A program made the position numbers and the translations under genes. Of a stretch of 44,219 nucleotides of DNA, positions 33,463 through 44,103 are shown one piece after another; position 1 is the stretch's first letter; every line of letters starts with the position of its first letter. The stretch lies in the NCBI GenBank assembly GCA_028821125.1, contig JAPPHD010000024.1, forward strand, positions 1 to 44,219. The letters run 5' to 3'. The stretch comes from Gammaproteobacteria bacterium (GTDB lineage: Bacteria; Pseudomonadota; Gammaproteobacteria; Pseudomonadales; Azotimanducaceae). The notes beneath the pieces were generated by a model. It saw nothing but the letters and a program-made list of their open reading frames with translations. It made no database searches and was not told the DNA's origin.

Positions 33463-36054
33463 ATGAAATTCATCGCAACATCGAAGTTGTTCCGGGCCGG
33501 CGTGGTCCGTGCCGCAGTCGCGCTGCTGACGCTGTGCTCGGCAAACATTGCCCTTGCCGAAGACGCGGATGAAGCGCAGGTTGCGTCGGCATCCGGCGGC
33601 GAAATCGAGGAAGTCGTCGTGGTCGGCTCGCGGCGCCGGGACCGTTCCGCGGCCGACTCGCCCGTTCCGGTCGACGTGATCGGGGGCGATGAATTCTCCG
33701 CCCAGGGCGATTCGAACATGGATTCCCTGATCGCGAGCCTGGTGCCTTCCTACAACGTCAGCCAGGAACCGATCAGCGATGCGGCAACCTTCATTCGCCC
33801 GGCAACGCTAAGGGGCCTGGCGCCGGACGCCACGCTCGTGCTGGTCAACGGCAAGCGCCGCCACCGGGCCGCCGTCATCGCCTTGCTCGGAGCGGGCATT
33901 TCGGGCGGTTCGCAAGGTCCGGACGTATCCGTCATCCCCGCCATTGCGCTGGACCGGCTCGAAGTGCTGCGCGACGGCGCCTCCGCCCAGTACGGCTCCG
34001 ACGCCATCGCCGGCATCATGAATTTCGTGCTCAAGGAAGACAATTCCGGCATGGCCGTCGACGCCAAGTGGGGCAGCCACTACGAAGGCGACGGCGATGC
34101 GCTCACCCTGTCCACCAACGTCGGCCTGCCCCTGACGGAGTACGGCTTCGCCAACTTCAGTTTCGAATGGAAGGAATCCGACCCCACCAGCCGCAGCCGG
34201 CAGCGGGGCGATGCCCAGGGCCTGATCGACGCGGGCAACACTAACGTGCGCCAGCCCGCGGCGCAGATCTGGGGCGCGCCGGAATACTCCGATGACTTCA
34301 AGCTGTTCGGCAATTTCGGCATCGACCTCGGCAACGGCATGGAAGCCTATGCGTTCGGCAACTGGGCGGAACGCCAGGTGGAAGGCGGCTTCTATTTCCG
34401 TAATCCGCATACTCGCGGCGGCGTGTTCCGCGGGCCGATGGTGGACGGCGAGCCCACGGTCAAGGTCGCCAATCTTTCCGGCGACCTCTCCTACCAGTGC
34501 CCGACCATACCCATCCGCAACAACGTACCGGATGCCGCGGGCATGGCCGCCGTAGGGGCCGACCCGAACTGCTACACCCTCTACGAGAAGTTTCCGGGCG
34601 GTTTCACGCCCCAGTTCGGCGCCTTCATCGACGACTACTCGATGGCCGGGGGCGTCCGCGGGCAGCTCGGCGACTGGTACTTCGACCTCAGCGCGGTGGC
34701 TGGCCGCAGCAACGCCGAGTTCTACATCTACAACACGATCAATCCCCAGTTGCTGGGCCAGCGCAACGACATCGATGTCCACTACGAGGCGGGCGCCTAC
34801 ACGGAGACCGACCGGGTCGTGAACATCGACGTATCGAGGCCGATTGACTTCGCCAACTTCTACGGGCCGGTGAACGTGGCGGCCGGCTTCGAGTACCGGG
34901 ACGAGACCTTCAAGATCACCAACGGCGAACCCAACTCCTTCTACATCGACACCGAATACGGCCTGGCGGCGCAGGGCTTCGGCATCGGCTCCAACGGCTT
35001 CCCGGGTTTCCAGCCGGGCGATGCGGGCAGCCACAAGTCGAGCGCCATCGCCGCCTATCTCGACCTGGAGTCGAACGTGACGGAACGGCTGCTGGTGGGC
35101 GCGGCACTGCGCTACGAAGACTACAAGGAATTCGGCGACACGCTGGACGGCAAGATCGCGCTGCGCGTTCAGGTTACCGACGCCATGGCCCTGCGCGGCG
35201 CGGTCAGCACGGGTTTCCGCGTGCCCACGGCCGGTCAGGCCAACCTGCGTAACGTCACCACCGAGTTCAACATGGGGTTCCTGGCCGACATCGCCACCCT
35301 GCCGCCGACCAACCCCGTCGCCCAGCAGAAGGGCGCCCAGGCCCTGACCCCGGAAGAGTCGACGAACATCACCCTCGGCGCCGTGTTCGAGGCCGGCCCC
35401 GCCGATGTCACCATCGACTACTACAACATCAAGATCGAGGACCGCATCGCCTTCACCAGCCGCTTCAACCTGAACGAAAGCGATATCCAGTCGCTGCTTG
35501 CGGCCGGCGTCAGCGACGCCACGAGCTTCACATCGGTGCGTTACTTCTCGAACCAGCAGGATGTCAAGGTGCAGGGTGTCGACCTGGTGGTCACCCTGCC
35601 GTTCGACCTTGGCGGCGGCACCTCGACCCTGACGGCGGTCGCCAACTGGTCGGATATCGAACTCAGCAGGTTCAACCCGGATTTCACCAGCGACAACCGC
35701 CGGCTGCAGATCGAGAGGGGCCGCCCGGACACGCGCTTCGTGGTGACCTGGACGCACCTGCAGGGGCCCTGGCGTTTCATGGCCCGGGGGCGCTACTACG
35801 GCGACTACTACGATGCTCCGACCAACGACGCCTCGGTGTCCTACTACCCGGATCCGGACTTCCTGATGGACTTCGAGATCTCCTACGATATCGGCGATCA
35901 GGTGACGCTGCTGGCGGGCGCGCAGAACGCGTTCGATGCCTATCCGCAGGAGAATCCGGCGGGTGAGGTGGCCGGGCTGATCTACCCGGAAAGCTCTCCC
36001 TTCAGCTTCAACGGCGGGTTCTACTACCTGCGGGCGCGCTGGGAGAGGCAGTAA
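33463..36054 (+). CDS. TonB-dependent outer-membrane receptor
   Basis: A 863-residue beta-barrel transporter with N-terminal plug. It has a signal peptide (CSANIALA), a TonB box-like EEVVVVGSR, the plug sequence TLRGLAPDATLVLVNGKRRH, LDRLEVLRDGASAQYGSDAIAG, and many amphipathic beta-strands to a C-terminal aromatic-rich end (YYLRARWERQ). Two Cys residues in an extracellular loop (YQCP... DPNCY) may form a disulfide. AAGGGGACAAGC precedes the ATG. The ligand class is not evident; the neighbours suggest an organic-amine-type molecule rather than a classical siderophore, but this is speculation. A strong stem-loop follows the gene. Confidence 0.92.
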   Translation: MKFIATSKLFRAGVVRAAVALLTLCSANIALAEDADEAQVASASGGEIEEVVVVGSRRRDRSAADSPVPVDVIGGDEFSAQGDSNMDSLIASLVPSYNVSQEPISDAATFIRPATLRGLAPDATLVLVNGKRRHRAAVIALLGAGISGGSQGPDVSVIPAIALDRLEVLRDGASAQYGSDAIAGIMNFVLKEDNSGMAVDAKWGSHYEGDGDALTLSTNVGLPLTEYGFANFSFEWKESDPTSRSRQRGDAQGLIDAGNTNVRQPAAQIWGAPEYSDDFKLFGNFGIDLGNGMEAYAFGNWAERQVEGGFYFRNPHTRGGVFRGPMVDGEPTVKVANLSGDLSYQCPTIPIRNNVPDAAGMAAVGADPNCYTLYEKFPGGFTPQFGAFIDDYSMAGGVRGQLGDWYFDLSAVAGRSNAEFYIYNTINPQLLGQRNDIDVHYEAGAYTETDRVVNIDVSRPIDFANFYGPVNVAAGFEYRDETFKITNGEPNSFYIDTEYGLAAQGFGIGSNGFPGFQPGDAGSHKSSAIAAYLDLESNVTERLLVGAALRYEDYKEFGDTLDGKIALRVQVTDAMALRGAVSTGFRVPTAGQANLRNVTTEFNMGFLADIATLPPTNPVAQQKGAQALTPEESTNITLGAVFEAGPADVTIDYYNIKIEDRIAFTSRFNLNESDIQSLLAAGVSDATSFTSVRYFSNQQDVKVQGVDLVVTLPFDLGGGTSTLTAVANWSDIELSRFNPDFTSDNRRLQIERGRPDTRFVVTWTHLQGPWRFMARGRYYGDYYDAPTNDASVSYYPDPDFLMDFEISYDIGDQVTLLAGAQNAFDAYPQENPAGEVAGLIYPESSPFSFNGGFYYLRARWERQ

Positions 36055-38508: not shown

Positions 38509-39801
38509 TCAGTCGGGTTTTCCGTAGTCTTCCGTGTTGTAGCACTCGAAGATCAGGTGAATCCGGTCTGTCGCGCCGTCGTTCCTGACGGCGTGGACGC
38601 GTTTGTTGTTCACCTCGTAGATCTCCCCGGCCGGCAGGTGCATTGCCTGGCGGCCGACGTGAAAGACGGCCTTTTCGTTCGTGATCAGCGGTACGTGAAT
38701 CTTGTGGACGTAGTGGCTGGCCTCGCCGTCGTAGTGGCCGGAAATGTCGCCGCCTGCGGGCACCTTCGCGAGCATGACGCGTGGAAAGCGGTAATCGCTG
38801 TAACCGAGTTTTTCCGCTGCCTGGTTCATGACCGGCAGCAGCGCGTTCTTCCACTCGTTCCAGAGCACGGGATGGTCGCTGTAGTCGAACACCCTTTCCG
38901 TGTCGGTGATGAAACGGAACATGATGTGGCGCGTTTCGTTGAGCTGCGCGATCTTGTTGGGCTTGGCTTCGTTTTGCGATTCCCACAGCGACTCGGGGAT
39001 CTCCCTCACCCGCCGAACCAGGGCGGTGATGTCGGCCGGCCCCAGGTGTCTGAAATAGTCGGTTTTCGGGTACTTGTGCGCTTCCGAGAATTCGTAGCCG
39101 AACCGGTCGATGATCGCGCGCTCTTTCTCGGCCACCAACTGTTCCAGTTCCGGGCCGTAGGCGCCCACGAAATGCTTCGGACGCGGGCTCGGATTGAGTG
39201 GGGGGGCAGCGTTGAGGTAGGCGGCAATGCGGTTCGTGATCGGCGTGCCGGTCTCTTCGAAAAGGCGATGCGTCTCGTGCCGCAGGTTCTCGAATCTTCC
39301 GATATGGATGGGATGGCCGCGATCGGAGCGGAACATGAGCTGGAACAACCAGCCGTAATAGCCGATGCCCTCGGGATAGTTGGCGAAATGATCCGAGCGG
39401 AGCCCCGGCAGGTGATTGCGGGCGGGCCGGCGGGCATTGATGGACCTCGGCGCGATCCTGGCCAGGTGCTTGAGGAGCCTCCGGCTCGCGGCGCTGCCGT
39501 CGCCGAGATTCAGAAACCGGGTAACCGTCGGCTCGAAATCCAGGGTGCCGCGGTCTGAGAGAACACCGAAGACAAACTGACCCTTGCGGCGGTAGTCGCT
39601 GAACATGGAGACGTACCAGTCCCAGGGGTTGCGCACGAATCCGATCACGGGGAGGTGTGAGCAGGCCTCGGGCAGGTCTTCCAGGTGGCCGTGATACTGG
39701 AGCATTCGCGCACCGGGAACCTGGTTCATGATGAGTTTGTTGAGGAAGGTCCCGCCGGTGCGCGAAACGTGGATATAGATGAAACGGTCAGTGACGATCA
39801 T
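38509..39801 (-). CDS. Fusion: sulfotransferase domain plus aspartyl/asparaginyl beta-hydroxylase-like domain
   Basis: A 430-residue single open frame. Residues 1-240 are a sulfotransferase: FIYIHVSRTGGTFLNKLI (PAPS 5'-phosphosulfate loop) and VIGFVRNPWDWYVSMFSD (3'-phosphate site, RNP...S). Residues ~290-420 are a cupin-fold dioxygenase-like domain of the AspH type: GHYDGEASHY with His356/Asp358, VHKIHVPLIT, VNNKRVHAVRN with His403, and DRIHLIFE with Arg413 for 2-oxoglutarate. Such a fusion is not a standard architecture that I know. The gene follows the DMGDH-like gene on the minus strand after 86 bp. Its role may be to hydroxylate and sulfate one product, or to modify a cell-surface component; neither is shown. 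Confidence 0.82.
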   Translation of the reverse strand: MIVTDRFIYIHVSRTGGTFLNKLIMNQVPGARMLQYHGHLEDLPEACSHLPVIGFVRNPWDWYVSMFSDYRRKGQFVFGVLSDRGTLDFEPTVTRFLNLGDGSAASRRLLKHLARIAPRSINARRPARNHLPGLRSDHFANYPEGIGYYGWLFQLMFRSDRGHPIHIGRFENLRHETHRLFEETGTPITNRIAAYLNAAPPLNPSPRPKHFVGAYGPELEQLVAEKERAIIDRFGYEFSEAHKYPKTDYFRHLGPADITALVRRVREIPESLWESQNEAKPNKIAQLNETRHIMFRFITDTERVFDYSDHPVLWNEWKNALLPVMNQAAEKLGYSDYRFPRVMLAKVPAGGDISGHYDGEASHYVHKIHVPLITNEKAVFHVGRQAMHLPAGEIYEVNNKRVHAVRNDGATDRIHLIFECYNTEDYGKPD

Positions 39802-39887: not shown

Positions 39888-42308
39888 TCAAGCACGCATT
39901 TTCGAGGCGGTGGGGTCGTACGGGGGCCTGGGCAACAGCCGGGCCTGCCTCTTGCCGTCGACGAGATGCACGGAGAACTCGCTGGAGGCCGACTCGAGAT
40001 ACGGCGACTTGATGTAGCCCAGCGCCAGGCTCTTGCCGACCCGGTGACCGTAGGCGCCGGACGTCACGAATCCGGCGTAGTCCCCGTCGAGCCAGATCGG
40101 CTCATAACCCCAGGCATCGGCTTCGCCGGCATCGATTTCGAGCGCGACCAGCCGGTGCTCGGGCTCCCCGTCGCGGTCGGCAAGCGCCGCCTCGCGGCCG
40201 ACGAAATCCGCCTTGGCGTAGTCGATCCACCGGTCCATGCCGCACATTGCCGGCGTGTAGTCCGGCGTGAATTCCCGGGACCAGACCCCGAAGCTCTTTT
40301 CCATGCCCATCGACACGAGCGCGCGGTTGCCGAACGGACGGATGTCGAACTGCCGTCCGGCTTCGAGCACCAGGTCGTAGACCGCGCCCGCGAACGTTGT
40401 CGGAACGTAGATCTCGTAGCCGAGTTCACCGGTGAACGACACCCGCGCCACCTGAGCCTCGGCCAGCCCCACGTCCATGGTGCGCACCGACATGAACGGC
40501 ATCGCGGCGGTGTCGAAATCCCCGTCGGCGACCGGCTGCATGAGCTCCCGGGATGCGGGGCCGGCAATCGAGATTGCGGTCAGTTCGTCGGAGCGGTTCC
40601 TGAGTTGTACATTGCAATCGCCCAGATGCTGCTCGAACCACAGCATGTGGTATTCCTGCAGGTAACCTGAGCCGATGATCCGGAAACGGTCGTCTGCCAG
40701 GCGCATCAGCGTCAGGTCGCCTTTCATGTGGCCGGAGGGCGAGAGCATGGGGCTCATGCGCATCCGGCCCACGGCGGGCAGGCGGCCGGCCAGCAACCGG
40801 TTCAGAAAGCCTGCGCTGTCCGGGCCCGACACGTCGTACTTCGCAAACGAGGTGCCGTCGATGATGCCGACGCCGCCGGCGACCGCCCGGCATTCGTCGC
40901 CGACCGGGCCGTGGGAGTTCGAGCGCCGGAAACTCGGCTGCTCGACCGGCTCGGTGCCCTCGGGCGCGAACCAGAGCGGTACTTCGAGGCCGAAGGAAGA
41001 GCCGAATACCGCGTTCGCCGCCTCGAGCCGGCCGTGCAGGGCCGATGTCTTGAGCGGTCGCGCGGCGGGCCACTCGTCGTTGGGACACAGGAGATAGAAG
41101 CGGTTCTCGTAGAATTCCTTCGCCTTCTCGACGGCGTAGGCGCTGGTCGCATAGGCGCCGAAGCGGTTCACGTCCATCGCGAACACGTCGCCTTCGGGCT
41201 CGCCGTCGATCATCCATTGGGAAAGGGCCAGCGCCACGCCGCTGCCCTGGCTGAATCCGGCCATGACGCCGCAACAGGACCAGTAGTTCCGGACGCCTCG
41301 TACCGGCCCCACGAGCGGATTGCCGTCGGGCGCGAACGTAAAGGGCCCGTTGACGATGCGCCGGATTCCGGCTTCGGCGACGGAGGGGAATCGCTCGAAT
41401 CCCTTGGTGAGCGCGTCGGCGACGTCGTCGAGCCGGGCTTCGAGCAGGTCGGTTTCGCCGAAGTCCCAGGACGTCCCGTTGACGGACCAGGGCGTCGAGT
41501 TCTGCTCGTAGACGCCGAGCAGCACGCCGTTCTGCTCCTGGCGCAGGTACATCTCCCCGTCGAGATCGAGAACCAGGGGCAGCTCGCTGTCCCATCCGGC
41601 CAGTTCATCGAGTTGTTCGGTCAGCAGGTAGTGGTGCTCCATCGGGACGATGGGAACGTGCACGCCGGCCATCGCACCCACTTCCCGGGCCCAGAGCCCC
41701 GCCGCGTTGACGATGTGTTCGCAATGGATGTTCCCCTGGTCCGTGACGACCGTCCAGGCGCCGTCCGGCCTGTGCACCAGGTCTTCGACCATCGTGTTCA
41801 GGTAAACCTCGGCGCCCCCCTGGCGGGCGGCCCTGGCCAGCGCCTGCGTCGAACCGTAGGGGTCGATGTGGCCTTCGTTGCCGTCGAACAGCCCGCCGAT
41901 CACGCCGGCGGTGTCCATGATCGGGCAGAGTTTCTTGATTTCGCCGGGTGTCAGCAGATGGCTGTCGATGCCGAGCACCCGGTGTTTCGCGTGCTCGTAG
42001 TTGATGTTCTCCCAACGCTCTTCGGTTGCGGCAACCTGGATGCCGCCGGTGACGTGCATGCCGACATCCTGGCCGCTGATCTCTTCCACCTCCCGGTATA
42101 CCGATATGCCGTAAGCCTGCAGCCGCGCCACGTTGGGGTCGCTGTTCATGGCGTGAAAGCCGCCGGCGGCGTGCCAGGTGGAGCCGGCGGTCAACTGCCT
42201 GCGCTCCACAAGCACCACGTCGGACCAGCCGAGCTTCGTGAGGTGATAGAGCACGGCGGCCCCGACGATGCCGCCGCCGATGACGACGACCCGGGCATGA
42301 TCCTTCAC
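39888..42308 (-). CDS. Dimethylglycine/sarcosine dehydrogenase-like FAD enzyme with GcvT domain
   Basis: An 806-residue protein of the DMGDH/SARDH/PDPR type. The N-terminal FAD domain starts VVVIGGGIVGAAVLYHLT, and GSTWHAAGGFH carries the His that usually bonds FAD covalently. The second half has the GcvT-like folate domain: SGHMKGDLTLMRL, GPASRELMQPV, FTGELGYEIYVP, and FGNRALVSMGMEKSFGVW, then the C-terminal beta-barrel LDGDYAGFVTSGAYGHRVGKSLALGY. This enzyme would oxidatively demethylate a methylated amine or glycine derivative, passing the one-carbon unit to tetrahydrofolate. It is transcribed between the propeller-like gene (47 bp upstream) and the sulfotransferase-hydroxylase. Substrate not certain. 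Confidence 0.92.
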   Translation of the reverse strand: MKDHARVVVIGGGIVGAAVLYHLTKLGWSDVVLVERRQLTAGSTWHAAGGFHAMNSDPNVARLQAYGISVYREVEEISGQDVGMHVTGGIQVAATEERWENINYEHAKHRVLGIDSHLLTPGEIKKLCPIMDTAGVIGGLFDGNEGHIDPYGSTQALARAARQGGAEVYLNTMVEDLVHRPDGAWTVVTDQGNIHCEHIVNAAGLWAREVGAMAGVHVPIVPMEHHYLLTEQLDELAGWDSELPLVLDLDGEMYLRQEQNGVLLGVYEQNSTPWSVNGTSWDFGETDLLEARLDDVADALTKGFERFPSVAEAGIRRIVNGPFTFAPDGNPLVGPVRGVRNYWSCCGVMAGFSQGSGVALALSQWMIDGEPEGDVFAMDVNRFGAYATSAYAVEKAKEFYENRFYLLCPNDEWPAARPLKTSALHGRLEAANAVFGSSFGLEVPLWFAPEGTEPVEQPSFRRSNSHGPVGDECRAVAGGVGIIDGTSFAKYDVSGPDSAGFLNRLLAGRLPAVGRMRMSPMLSPSGHMKGDLTLMRLADDRFRIIGSGYLQEYHMLWFEQHLGDCNVQLRNRSDELTAISIAGPASRELMQPVADGDFDTAAMPFMSVRTMDVGLAEAQVARVSFTGELGYEIYVPTTFAGAVYDLVLEAGRQFDIRPFGNRALVSMGMEKSFGVWSREFTPDYTPAMCGMDRWIDYAKADFVGREAALADRDGEPEHRLVALEIDAGEADAWGYEPIWLDGDYAGFVTSGAYGHRVGKSLALGYIKSPYLESASSEFSVHLVDGKRQARLLPRPPYDPTASKMRA

Positions 42309-42355: not shown

Positions 42356-43294
42356 TCAGGCTTCGAACGGCCAGGGGGCGAGGCCACCAATGGCGTTGCG
42401 GATATCCATGGAAAGATTGACGGAGGCCACCCTCTGCCGGGACTGGAAGTCGTACAGGCTGATGGTCGACGGTGACGAACCGGCGGCCACGAACCTCTCG
42501 CCGATCACGCAGAGGCCGCGGGCGAATCCCTGCCGCAGGTCGCCGGTGTCTTCCTTGGCGCCGAATTCGATTTCAGACTCATCGAAGGATGCCGCCCTGA
42601 AAGCGAGGCTGGTCCCGTCGCGGCCGGCGTAACGCACGCAGCCGCTTTCCGTGTCGTTCAGCAGCACGCCGTCCCGGTACGGCCGGGCGTTGTGCGCCTC
42701 ACCGGGCAGCGAGCAGACCGCTGACACCTCCATTTCGTTGCCCAGGTGCAACAGCGCCTCGGTGCGCAGGCCGCTGAAGTAGATGCCGGTGCCGTCGACG
42801 TGAACCATGTTGATGTGGTAGTCGTTGACGGGCACCGGGCCCATGTTCGAACGCGGGTCGAAGGTATGGCCGGCCCATTGGCCGTGCTGCCGGATGAGGT
42901 GGTAGCCCCAGACGTACTCCCGGGTGCCCAGGTCGAAGGCGAGCAGGCTGTCGAAACCCGGCGAGGTCAGGAAGACCTTGTCCTTGTACCGGCAGATCTC
43001 GTGGCAGTCGTCGAGGTAGCGGTTGCGGCTGAAGGTCTTGATGCTGAAGTCGGGGCCGCAGCGGAACAGCAAGTCGCTCCCGGCGATCAGCACCTCCTCG
43101 TCGCAGGGGGCGATGCCCCGCAGGCCGCGGTCGCCGCTGGCGCCTTCGAAGTCCATGCCGCCCGTGTTCCAATCGAAGAGCTGCTCGGTGGTGCGCTCCT
43201 CGAAGTCGACCACGAAGACGCCGCCTTCGCTCTTGTCCCTGTGGGTGCCGCGTACGACCGATGTCGTGACGAGCCTGGGCAGTCGCAGCGTCAT
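42356..43294 (-). CDS. Conserved hypothetical, beta-propeller-like protein
   Basis: I do not recognise a named gene. The 312-residue product, taken from ATG 43294 (GGAG eleven bases upstream), shows several repeating strand patterns such as EICRYKDKVFLTSPGFDSLL, INMVHVDGTGIYFSGLRTEA, AHNARPYRDGVLLNDTESG and GLCVIGERFVAAGSSPST, which resemble blades of a beta-propeller. It has no signal peptide. A farther ATG at 43384 would add 30 non-typical residues. It starts the minus-strand trio, 47 bp upstream of the DMGDH-like gene, and its 5' end is divergent from the second hydroxylase gene. A binding or structural role in the same pathway is possible; no catalytic motif is seen. Confidence 0.6.
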   Translation of the reverse strand: MTLRLPRLVTTSVVRGTHRDKSEGGVFVVDFEERTTEQLFDWNTGGMDFEGASGDRGLRGIAPCDEEVLIAGSDLLFRCGPDFSIKTFSRNRYLDDCHEICRYKDKVFLTSPGFDSLLAFDLGTREYVWGYHLIRQHGQWAGHTFDPRSNMGPVPVNDYHINMVHVDGTGIYFSGLRTEALLHLGNEMEVSAVCSLPGEAHNARPYRDGVLLNDTESGCVRYAGRDGTSLAFRAASFDESEIEFGAKEDTGDLRQGFARGLCVIGERFVAAGSSPSTISLYDFQSRQRVASVNLSMDIRNAIGGLAPWPFEA

Positions 43295-43449
43295 GGCGCG
43301 GTCAACTCCGGCCGAAACGGGCCATGTCGTCAGCCGGCGCGTTACGTTGTTCGCCCGGAGCGGGAGCCTGGTGCCCGTTTGCATTCATGGGTGGCCGAAC
43401 TTAGGCTGGCATCGGAAAAGATTCAGCCTATCTTACATCGCCCGCCACC

Positions 43450-44103
43450 ATGGACATCGAGGTACCGTTGCGCGATCTCGGCGCCGTCGACGCCACTGCG
43501 TTGCGCGACGCCATCCTCGCCCAGGAAGAGGTCGCCTGGCACGAAGACCGGTCCCGCCAGGAGTCCTTCTACGTCCACGACCAGACCCGGTCGATCGTGA
43601 TGATCGCGGTGGACGACGATTCCTGGCCGGCGGGCGCGGTCAGCCGCGGCCCCGGTTGGAACCGCATCGCGGACGCCGCCTTGCCGGTCATGCAGAAAAT
43701 CGTCGCCGCCCACTACCCCGAAGGCGGCGAAGTCATCCGCGCCATCGCCGCGAACCTCGAGGCCGGCAGCAGAATCCGTGCCCACAGCGACATCCACCAG
43801 TCGTTCCATTGCGCACACCGCATCCACGTGCCCATCACCACCAACCCCAAGGTCTGGTACACCATTCACGGCCGCCCCTTCCAGCTCAAGCCCGGCCACG
43901 CCTTCGAGATCAACAACCAGGCCCAGCACAGCGTCACCAACCGGGGAACCAAAGACCGCATCACCTTCATCTTCGACTACATCCCCCCCGGCCCCCTGGC
44001 CTACGACCCCGGCCGCGGCAGGCAGAGACCCGAGAACCTGAGCATCCAACCCCCCGGCCTCGCATTCCGCGTTCCACGAGAAACTTCGGGTGCCGACAAT
44101 TGA
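43450..44103 (+). CDS. Aspartyl/asparaginyl beta-hydroxylase-like dioxygenase
   Basis: A 217-residue protein with the AspH cupin core. The metal-binding HxD motif is AHSDIHQS (His112, Asp114), followed by HRIHVPITTNPKVWYTIHG, the distal His160 in NNQAQHSVTN, and Arg170 (KDRITFIFDY) for 2-oxoglutarate. This core matches the C-terminal domain of the fusion protein at 38509-39801 block by block (for example HKIHVPLITN against HRIHVPITTN), so the two are paralogues. The gene is divergent from the propeller-like gene with 155 bp between starts. Substrate is unknown; small-molecule or peptide hydroxylation are both possible. The final 116 bases of the window (44104-44219) hold no complete gene. Confidence 0.85.
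   Translation: MDIEVPLRDLGAVDATALRDAILAQEEVAWHEDRSRQESFYVHDQTRSIVMIAVDDDSWPAGAVSRGPGWNRIADAALPVMQKIVAAHYPEGGEVIRAIAANLEAGSRIRAHSDIHQSFHCAHRIHVPITTNPKVWYTIHGRPFQLKPGHAFEINNQAQHSVTNRGTKDRITFIFDYIPPGPLAYDPGRGRQRPENLSIQPPGLAFRVPRETSGADN

Follow-up and report, generated by a model that had tools for sequence, protein, structure and literature searches.

Here, we report that a stretch of gammaproteobacterial DNA of 44,219 nucleotides (Azotimanducaceae; assembly GCA_028821125.1, contig JAPPHD010000024.1, positions 1 to 44,219; this whole stretch is called the window) encodes on its minus strand a single protein in which a sulfotransferase-type half is fused to an AspH-type hydroxylase half. Judging from sequence features, we think it somewhat probable that the fusion works as a bifunctional tailoring enzyme, with hydroxylation and sulfation both directed at one shared substrate, probably a peptide. 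Briefly, the C-terminal AspH-type domain would hydroxylate a residue with the help of Fe(II), O2, and 2-oxoglutarate, whereas the N-terminal domain would transfer sulfate from 3'-phosphoadenosine-5'-phosphosulfate (PAPS) to a hydroxyl on the same, probably peptidic, substrate; hydroxylation would come first, perhaps providing the hydroxyl for sulfation. The fusion may be regarded as the joined form of sulfotransferase and AspH genes that relatives carry as neighbors in that order. The gene and its parts are as follows.

38509..39801, minus strand: sulfotransferase-AspH fusion open reading frame (ORF), 430 amino acids, ATG start, stop included; full-length orthologs in genome G002 and at loci L039 and L040
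39079..39801, minus strand: sulfotransferase-superfamily domain, residues 1-241 (about), by hhalign to a Sulfotransfer_2 family and by PHROG 3347, with PF00685 below cut-off
39748..39771, minus strand: HVSRTGGT motif, residues 11-18, from alignments of 12 and 15 sequences
39607..39633, minus strand: RNPWDWYVS motif, residues 57-65, from the same two alignments
39055..39078, minus strand: inter-domain linker, residues 242-249, matching the stop/start region of the split gene pair at L234
38539..39054, minus strand: AspH-type Fe(II)/2-oxoglutarate hydroxylase domain, residues 250-421, with PF05118 above cut-off
38728..38736, minus strand: H356-x-D358 (HxD), from alignments of fusions and AspH domains
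38593..38595, minus strand: H403, from the same alignments
38563..38565, minus strand: R413, from the same alignments

The ATG-to-stop frame has zero internal stops, and the fusion is found intact in four assemblies, i.e., the window, G002 (81%), L039 (79%), and L040 (64%). The first-pass annotation had described one open frame with two domains and recognizable motifs, and this description holds for the 430-amino acid protein with its PF05118 domain, its motifs, and the profile homology of its N-terminal half; a domain search places the C-terminal half above the Pfam cut-off, and the N-terminal half is weak in Pfam and matched end to end by a family profile. Selection acts on both halves: over the three closest fusion pairs, the ratio of nonsynonymous to synonymous substitution rates (dN/dS) is 0.13-0.14 for the sulfotransferase half and 0.11-0.16 for the AspH half, and across the junction (residues 236-256) two of these pairs have values of 0.03-0.04, synonymous sites being saturated in the third. 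Please note that in pairs with L040 synonymous sites were saturated in nearly all comparisons.

PF05118 covers residues 320-421 of the AspH half with 40.3 bits (cut-off 22.6), and this half has the double-stranded beta-helix fold. H356 and D358, which we take to be the HxD metal-ligand motif, H403, presumably the distal metal ligand, and R413, the arginine we expect to bind 2-oxoglutarate, are invariant in all four fusions and in 14 of 14 aligned AspH domains. A tree of 69 AspH domains unites the four fused ones in a single clade (support 99/95), nested in a clade of 19 rows (100/99), which also holds two AspHs of TonB operons, ten from or grouping with lasso-type loci, and three that lie next to an OpgC-like gene (labeled by eye). 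Three viral AspH rows (L140, L141, and L158) adjoin the 19-row clade, and the joint fork of 22 rows has support 93/82.

We assign the N-terminal half to the PAPS-dependent sulfotransferase superfamily by profile homology only, and not as a PF00685 member. Its family profile aligns end to end over residues 1-243 with a Sulfotransfer_2 family (A5; hhalign probability 98.0, E 1.5e-13), of which the two members scanned both pass PF03567, and PHROG 3347, named Galactose-3-O-sulfotransferase, matches the half at E 6.8e-6; hhalign against a Sulfotransfer_1-type family of lasso-type clusters (A6) gave no match (probability 0.5). PF00685 is matched by seven of the 12 members of the half's own family at E up to 0.1. 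HVSRTGGT is presumably a 5'-phosphosulfate-loop-type motif and RNPWDWYVS a 3'-phosphate-type motif. H11, T15, G17, R57, N58, P59, W60, and S65 are invariant in 15 of 15 aligned sequences; H11, G17, R57, P59, W60, Y63, and S65 are invariant in both alignments, with T15 and N58 variable in the one of 12 sequences. A fold search with the whole-protein model listed matches that all come from the AspH half and none to a sulfotransferase; the AspH half fills that list, hence it is no evidence on the N-terminal half.

The architecture is rare, but the sulfotransferase-AspH pairing is not. Sixteen non-fusion loci of the 19-row clade (15 tree loci and L223; 12-16 kb each) were inspected, and a sulfotransferase gene lies near AspH in 12 of them, a count to be read with the facts that the custom hidden Markov models (HMMs) were partly built from loci later scored and that the loci were chosen from best hits. 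Eleven of these match the custom sulfotransferase HMMs (L041, L044, L049, L097, L098, L099, L100, L101, L135, L223, and L224); the twelfth, L222, matches none of them but has two PF13469 matches (E 2.4e-10 and 1.3e-9). As a background for this family only, 193 PF13469 matches in 16 genomes (about 69 Mb) correspond to about 0.04 per 14 kb.

Alphaproteobacterial-type loci (L044, L135, and L234-L239) have a sulfotransferase gene directly upstream of AspH in eight cases out of eight. The annotated order on an Asticcacaulis plasmid (L044) is TonB-dependent receptor, sulfotransferase family 2, AspH domain, sulfotransferase, and the sulfotransferase family 2 and AspH genes overlap; L135 (genome G1247) has this order and a second AspH-type gene. 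At L234-L239 (E below 1e-47; five weaker hits of the same order, L240-L244, were left out) the two genes are on the same strand in all six, a tetratricopeptide repeat (TPR) sulfotransferase comes next in five, and a TonB-like frame lies within the short flanks in four. The order of G1247 and L234-L239 is taken as Caulobacterales because of the Asticcacaulis record. At L234 (wider view, L245) sulfotransferase and AspH genes share one frame, with TAA and nine bases between them, which is the starting state expected for a fusion by stop loss; it is a model and not an ancestor, because the two sulfotransferase subfamilies are distant. As relatives carry both as neighboring genes, the pairing suggests that both enzymes would act on the same molecule.

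Asn synthase genes lie near nine of the 16 non-fusion clade loci. L041 has Asn synthase, PqqD, two HprK-like genes, AspH, and two sulfotransferases, the second of which is the closest stand-alone relative of the fused half (70% identity); C runs occur in or near its candidate lasso precursor genes (L041:4637-4654 and L041:3408-3419), possibly reflecting slippage or sequencing trouble. L095, outside the clade, combines Asn synthase, Transglut_core3, and PqqD (by Pfam) with HprK-like and AspH genes and two sulfotransferase genes; three phage-tail-collar-like genes (labeled by eye) lie within this lasso-type cluster (L095:9109-10704). One frame at each of two further lasso-type loci (L099:4584-6887 and L224:7292-9538) matches both Sulfotransfer_1-type and HprK-like custom HMMs and may be another type of sulfotransferase fusion.

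The strongest individual hint of a dependence of the pair on PAPS comes from a phage-like contig, L141, because there a donor-making adenosine-5'-phosphosulfate (APS) kinase gene lies beside both tailoring enzymes. On one strand (L141:3-2016) are found, in order, a sulfotransferase-type gene (3e-29 to a custom HMM; cut by the contig end or the stretch end), the APS kinase (PF01583 35.2 bits, cut-off 21.1; its best PHROGs match is a family named 'kinase'), two short frames, and AspH (51.7 bits). An APS kinase is also carried by the window's own genome (206.5 bits).

The first-pass annotation had called the joining of sulfation with hydroxylation unusual, and full-length matches are indeed rare in all genome samples searched. 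Among 58 genomes (own included), they are in the own genome and in G002; these two are also the matches among 206 family genomes, and the own genome is the sole match among 390 of the order, 369 of the class, and 398 of the phylum. None of 249 genomes of the order of G1247 has a full-length fusion (these samples overlap, and in the order, class, family, phylum, and G1247-order samples scoring was confined to the top few candidates of each genome). GTDB contigs yielded five loci, of which two are full fusions. By tblastn, matches were obtained in 17 of 72,556 plasmid records and in four of 50,697 phage records, all of them short of 80% query coverage. A viral origin was rejected, since scans of viral contigs gave 16, 0, 60, and 22 loci (some contigs twice), none with the fusion, and among the viral loci compared only L141 matched both halves, as separate genes. 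A candidate fifth fusion (G025 contig 94) was not counted as one, having a TAG between the halves and its sulfotransferase half in two frames.

A probable loss of one half is seen at L042, a stand-alone sulfotransferase of 240-245 amino acids. Behind its stop the frame continues with a linker-like piece of 15 residues (53%, E 0.089). In a different frame, 19 more residues match the window AspH half (53%, E 0.004), both pieces within 91 bases (L042:6712-6802, the site of the probable linker and AspH remnant behind the gene); with the L040 fusion as query, the linker piece is matched (45%, E 6.5) and the AspH piece is absent. L042 pairs with the L040 fusion in trees of the sulfotransferase half (97/91 with 17 rows, bootstrap not settled; 86/81 with 10 rows). 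It is probable, and not proven, from these sequence traces that L042 is a former fusion that lost its hydroxylase half. A single clade of the four fused sulfotransferase domains was rejected by the approximately unbiased test (p-AU 0.0066 with 17 rows, bootstrap not settled; 0.002 with 10 rows), whereas a single origin withstands the test once L042 is included as a former fusion (p-AU 0.093 with 10 rows; the group was named after seeing the tree, and the sequence evidence for this former fusion is weak with the L040 query). L041, L043, and L096 have no AspH or linker remnant directly behind the sulfotransferase stop. Interrupted remnants of the sulfotransferase half are seen in two relatives of the same family (L047:8146-8382 and G899 contig 201:1546-1800).

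The surroundings of the fusion in the window include an OYE-type reductase and the following genes.

39888..42308, minus strand: flavin/folate demethylase-like gene with DAO, FAO_M, and GCV_T (Pfam), upstream of the fusion with an 86-bp gap; a remnant lies beside the L039 fusion
42356..43384, minus strand: 342-amino acid protein with no Pfam or NCBIfam match at E up to 1, recurring beside stand-alone AspH genes
43450..44103, plus strand: stand-alone AspH of 217 amino acids (PF05118 42.9 bits), of another AspH group than the fused domain
33463..36054, plus strand: TonB-dependent-receptor-like gene, a neighbor on the opposite strand and a candidate partner of the fusion (named by eye; the custom HMM was partly built from this gene)

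A paralogous hydroxylase had been proposed close by; the stand-alone AspH does exist 3.6 kb away, but it is not a close paralog, having 28% identity to the fused domain and a place in a separate group of 35 rows (95/84) in the 69-domain tree, by which a recent tandem duplication was rejected as its origin. The 342-amino acid protein is conserved (about 36-45%) beside stand-alone AspH genes of other genomes. At seven hand-picked loci of this other AspH group (L225-L231), a TPR-sulfotransferase is present in five and a 342-amino acid-type gene in six, and the trio of stand-alone AspH, 342-amino acid-type protein, and TPR-sulfotransferase recurs in five of the seven (L227-L231). In the own genome, all four further contigs with a low-scoring AspH (C68, C88, C102, and C189) carry a PF13469 gene at a distance of no more than about 5.3 kb; on the two contigs with a high-scoring AspH (C33 and C120), no PF13469 is among the matches listed (19 of 21).

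The similarity between window and G002 (80.5% identity) spans precisely the gene, 1293 bases long; in flanks of up to 4.5 kb (about 2.35 kb upstream on the G002 side), blastn found nothing similar beyond the fusion. At L039 a whole fusion lies beside pieces of the window neighbors, with DNA 75-86% identical; the pieces match the 217-amino acid AspH, the 342-amino acid protein, and the end of the DAO/GCV_T gene. Therefore, the fusion is retained while its neighbors decay at L039, and it sits in other surroundings in G002. The L039 record is named Candidatus Binatia, and its likeness to the window locus is perhaps due to a misbinned contig or to transfer.

A peptide is favored as the substrate because the nearest AspH relatives lie in lasso-type clusters, and because known lasso hydroxylases and, presumably, methanobactin sulfotransferases act on peptides, according to the excerpts of PMC8498205 and PMC3621798. 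Several points weigh against a bifunctional enzyme with a shared peptidic substrate. The halves are probably separable, because L042 seems to keep its sulfotransferase half without an AspH half. PF00685 gives the sulfotransferase half 13.3 bits against a cut-off of 22, and the L141 sulfotransferase-type gene 15.8 bits, also below cut-off. Four of the 16 clade loci (L048, L102, L103, and L136) have no nearby sulfotransferase by the custom HMMs and lie outside the PF13469 genome scan, and the partial circularity of these HMMs described above counts here as well. By sequence, the closest solved relative is the L-proline cis-4-hydroxylase 4p7w (E 5.7e-7). The own genome (97.3% complete) has no convincing lasso machinery: no Transglut_core3 match is over cut-off (best 24.8 bits versus 26, in a frame of 497 amino acids), and four Asn_synthase matches of 23.5-30.0 bits (cut-off 21) are partial, covering 43-117 of 354 positions. 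Lastly, no conserved small peptide gene is found beside the four fusions in the flanks examined (those of L039 and L040 are short on one side); 242 short ORFs near fusions gave only two matching pairs, both antisense in remnant genes.

A small-molecule substrate is a serious rival because of the lack of convincing lasso machinery and of a conserved small gene in the flanks examined, the proline-hydroxylase kin, and the case of a biarylitide cluster: that cluster has an AspH gene, and according to a passage of PMC13417212, unexpectedly, only the cross-linked peptide ion was found, so an AspH gene in a peptide cluster does not always leave a visible mark. We give a minority but real chance to the substrate being a small molecule or nutrient, e.g., an amine or an imported metabolite; the partners of the fusion would then be the demethylase-like flavoprotein, the TonB receptor, and the OYE-like enzyme. 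The same-strand DAO/GCV_T gene 86 bp upstream and the nearby TonB-like receptor and OYE-type reductase fit this, as do 4p7w and 7v4f, the latter from a nucleoside-antibiotic pathway, and an annotated TIGR03364 oxidase with a phosphonoacetaldehyde hydrolase near the L044 pair (L135 looks alike by eye). However, the G002 fusion has no DNA similarity to the window flanks, only some neighbors leave remnants at L039, and nine of the 16 clade relatives lie near Asn-synthase (lasso-type) genes.

Returning to the bifunctional enzyme with a probably peptidic substrate, a broader idea would be a general, hitherto undescribed two-step modification in which an AspH-type domain installs a hydroxyl and a partner sulfotransferase sulfates that same hydroxyl, giving a sulfo-oxy side chain (e.g., of a peptide Asp or Asn), used in lasso peptides, TonB-receptor operons, and phages with their own APS kinase; we offer this tentatively and with considerable doubt. 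The fusion does draw attention to the wider pairing of sulfotransferase and AspH genes, seen at lasso-type clusters, within TonB operons, and on a phage-like contig.

It is improbable that the sulfotransferase-like half is non-catalytic and merely binds substrate or 3'-phosphoadenosine-5'-phosphate (PAP), the protein being effectively a hydroxylase. The low Pfam score of this half would agree with it, as would the arginine R14, a loop position occupied by lysine in the Sulfotransfer_2-type family; yet key loop and 3'-phosphate positions are invariant in 15 sequences (T15 is His in L096), dN/dS of the half stays at 0.13-0.14, and L042 seems to retain this half rather than the AspH half. Slightly less probable still is a lasso-peptide tailoring enzyme (lasso peptides being ribosomally synthesized and post-translationally modified peptides, RiPPs) acting in trans on a precursor whose gene lies in another part of the genome. 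The lasso-type cluster around L041, its closest stand-alone sulfotransferase relative, and the ten AspH-clade rows from or grouping with such clusters speak for it, but the near-complete genome offers only the subthreshold and partial matches given above. No lasso B1, B2, or C genes and no precursor were seen in the window; when the window was scanned for precursor motifs, the single hit lay 28 kb away and antisense to a predicted ORF, and we judged it spurious. An assembly or annotation artifact is next to negligible: all four copies do sit on contigs of multi-contig assemblies, but these assemblies share the junction and a conserved linker although the proteins are only 64-81% identical, and a chance or assembly joining of the two halves is very unlikely because intact fusions occur in all four. 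The three copies outside the window likewise argue strongly against a hidden stop or frameshift between its two domains.

Compared with known systems, the human AspH oxygenase domain (5apa, 7e6j) comes in entries that carry TPRs and presumably lacks the HxD aspartate; we also take it that neither human AspH nor the L-proline cis-4-hydroxylase 4p7w has a sulfotransferase domain. The Asticcacaulis pair WP_338736418/WP_338736417 resembles the fusion in having sulfotransferase, then AspH, but it is two genes and its sulfotransferase is of a distant subfamily (family-level hhalign E 1.5e-13). The canucin hydroxylase CanE is an Fe(II)/2-oxoglutarate enzyme that beta-hydroxylates Asp of a linear precursor peptide in the excerpted account of PMC8498205; it is akin in that relatives of the fused AspH domain lie in lasso-type clusters (the sequences were not compared), and differs in that no sulfotransferase domain is mentioned in those excerpts and that the window genome lacks convincing lasso machinery. 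Methanobactin MbnS, in the passages drawn from PMC3621798, is a sulfotransferase of PF00685 whose presumed target is a threonine in a ribosomal peptide, and its operon family often includes a TonB-dependent transporter; its likeness to the fusion is by description, and those passages mention no AspH partner or fusion. The near-consecutive clusters 1738-1748 of Pontixanthobacter/Allopontixanthobacter comprise lasso B2, sulfotransferase, aspartyl beta-hydroxylase, sulfotransferase, PqqD, and Asn synthase (PMC10040529), as separate genes in rows of a halotolerance table, and the pair is not discussed in the portion of that source concerned. At title and abstract level, no sulfotransferase-AspH fusion was found in the openly licensed literature, which does not prove that none has been described. 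The superfamilies of both halves are known, and it is the fusion that is new: it links two tailoring steps that are otherwise loosely associated, and if the two halves act sequentially on one residue, it would represent a new peptide modification and a single-protein catalyst for it, directly testable.
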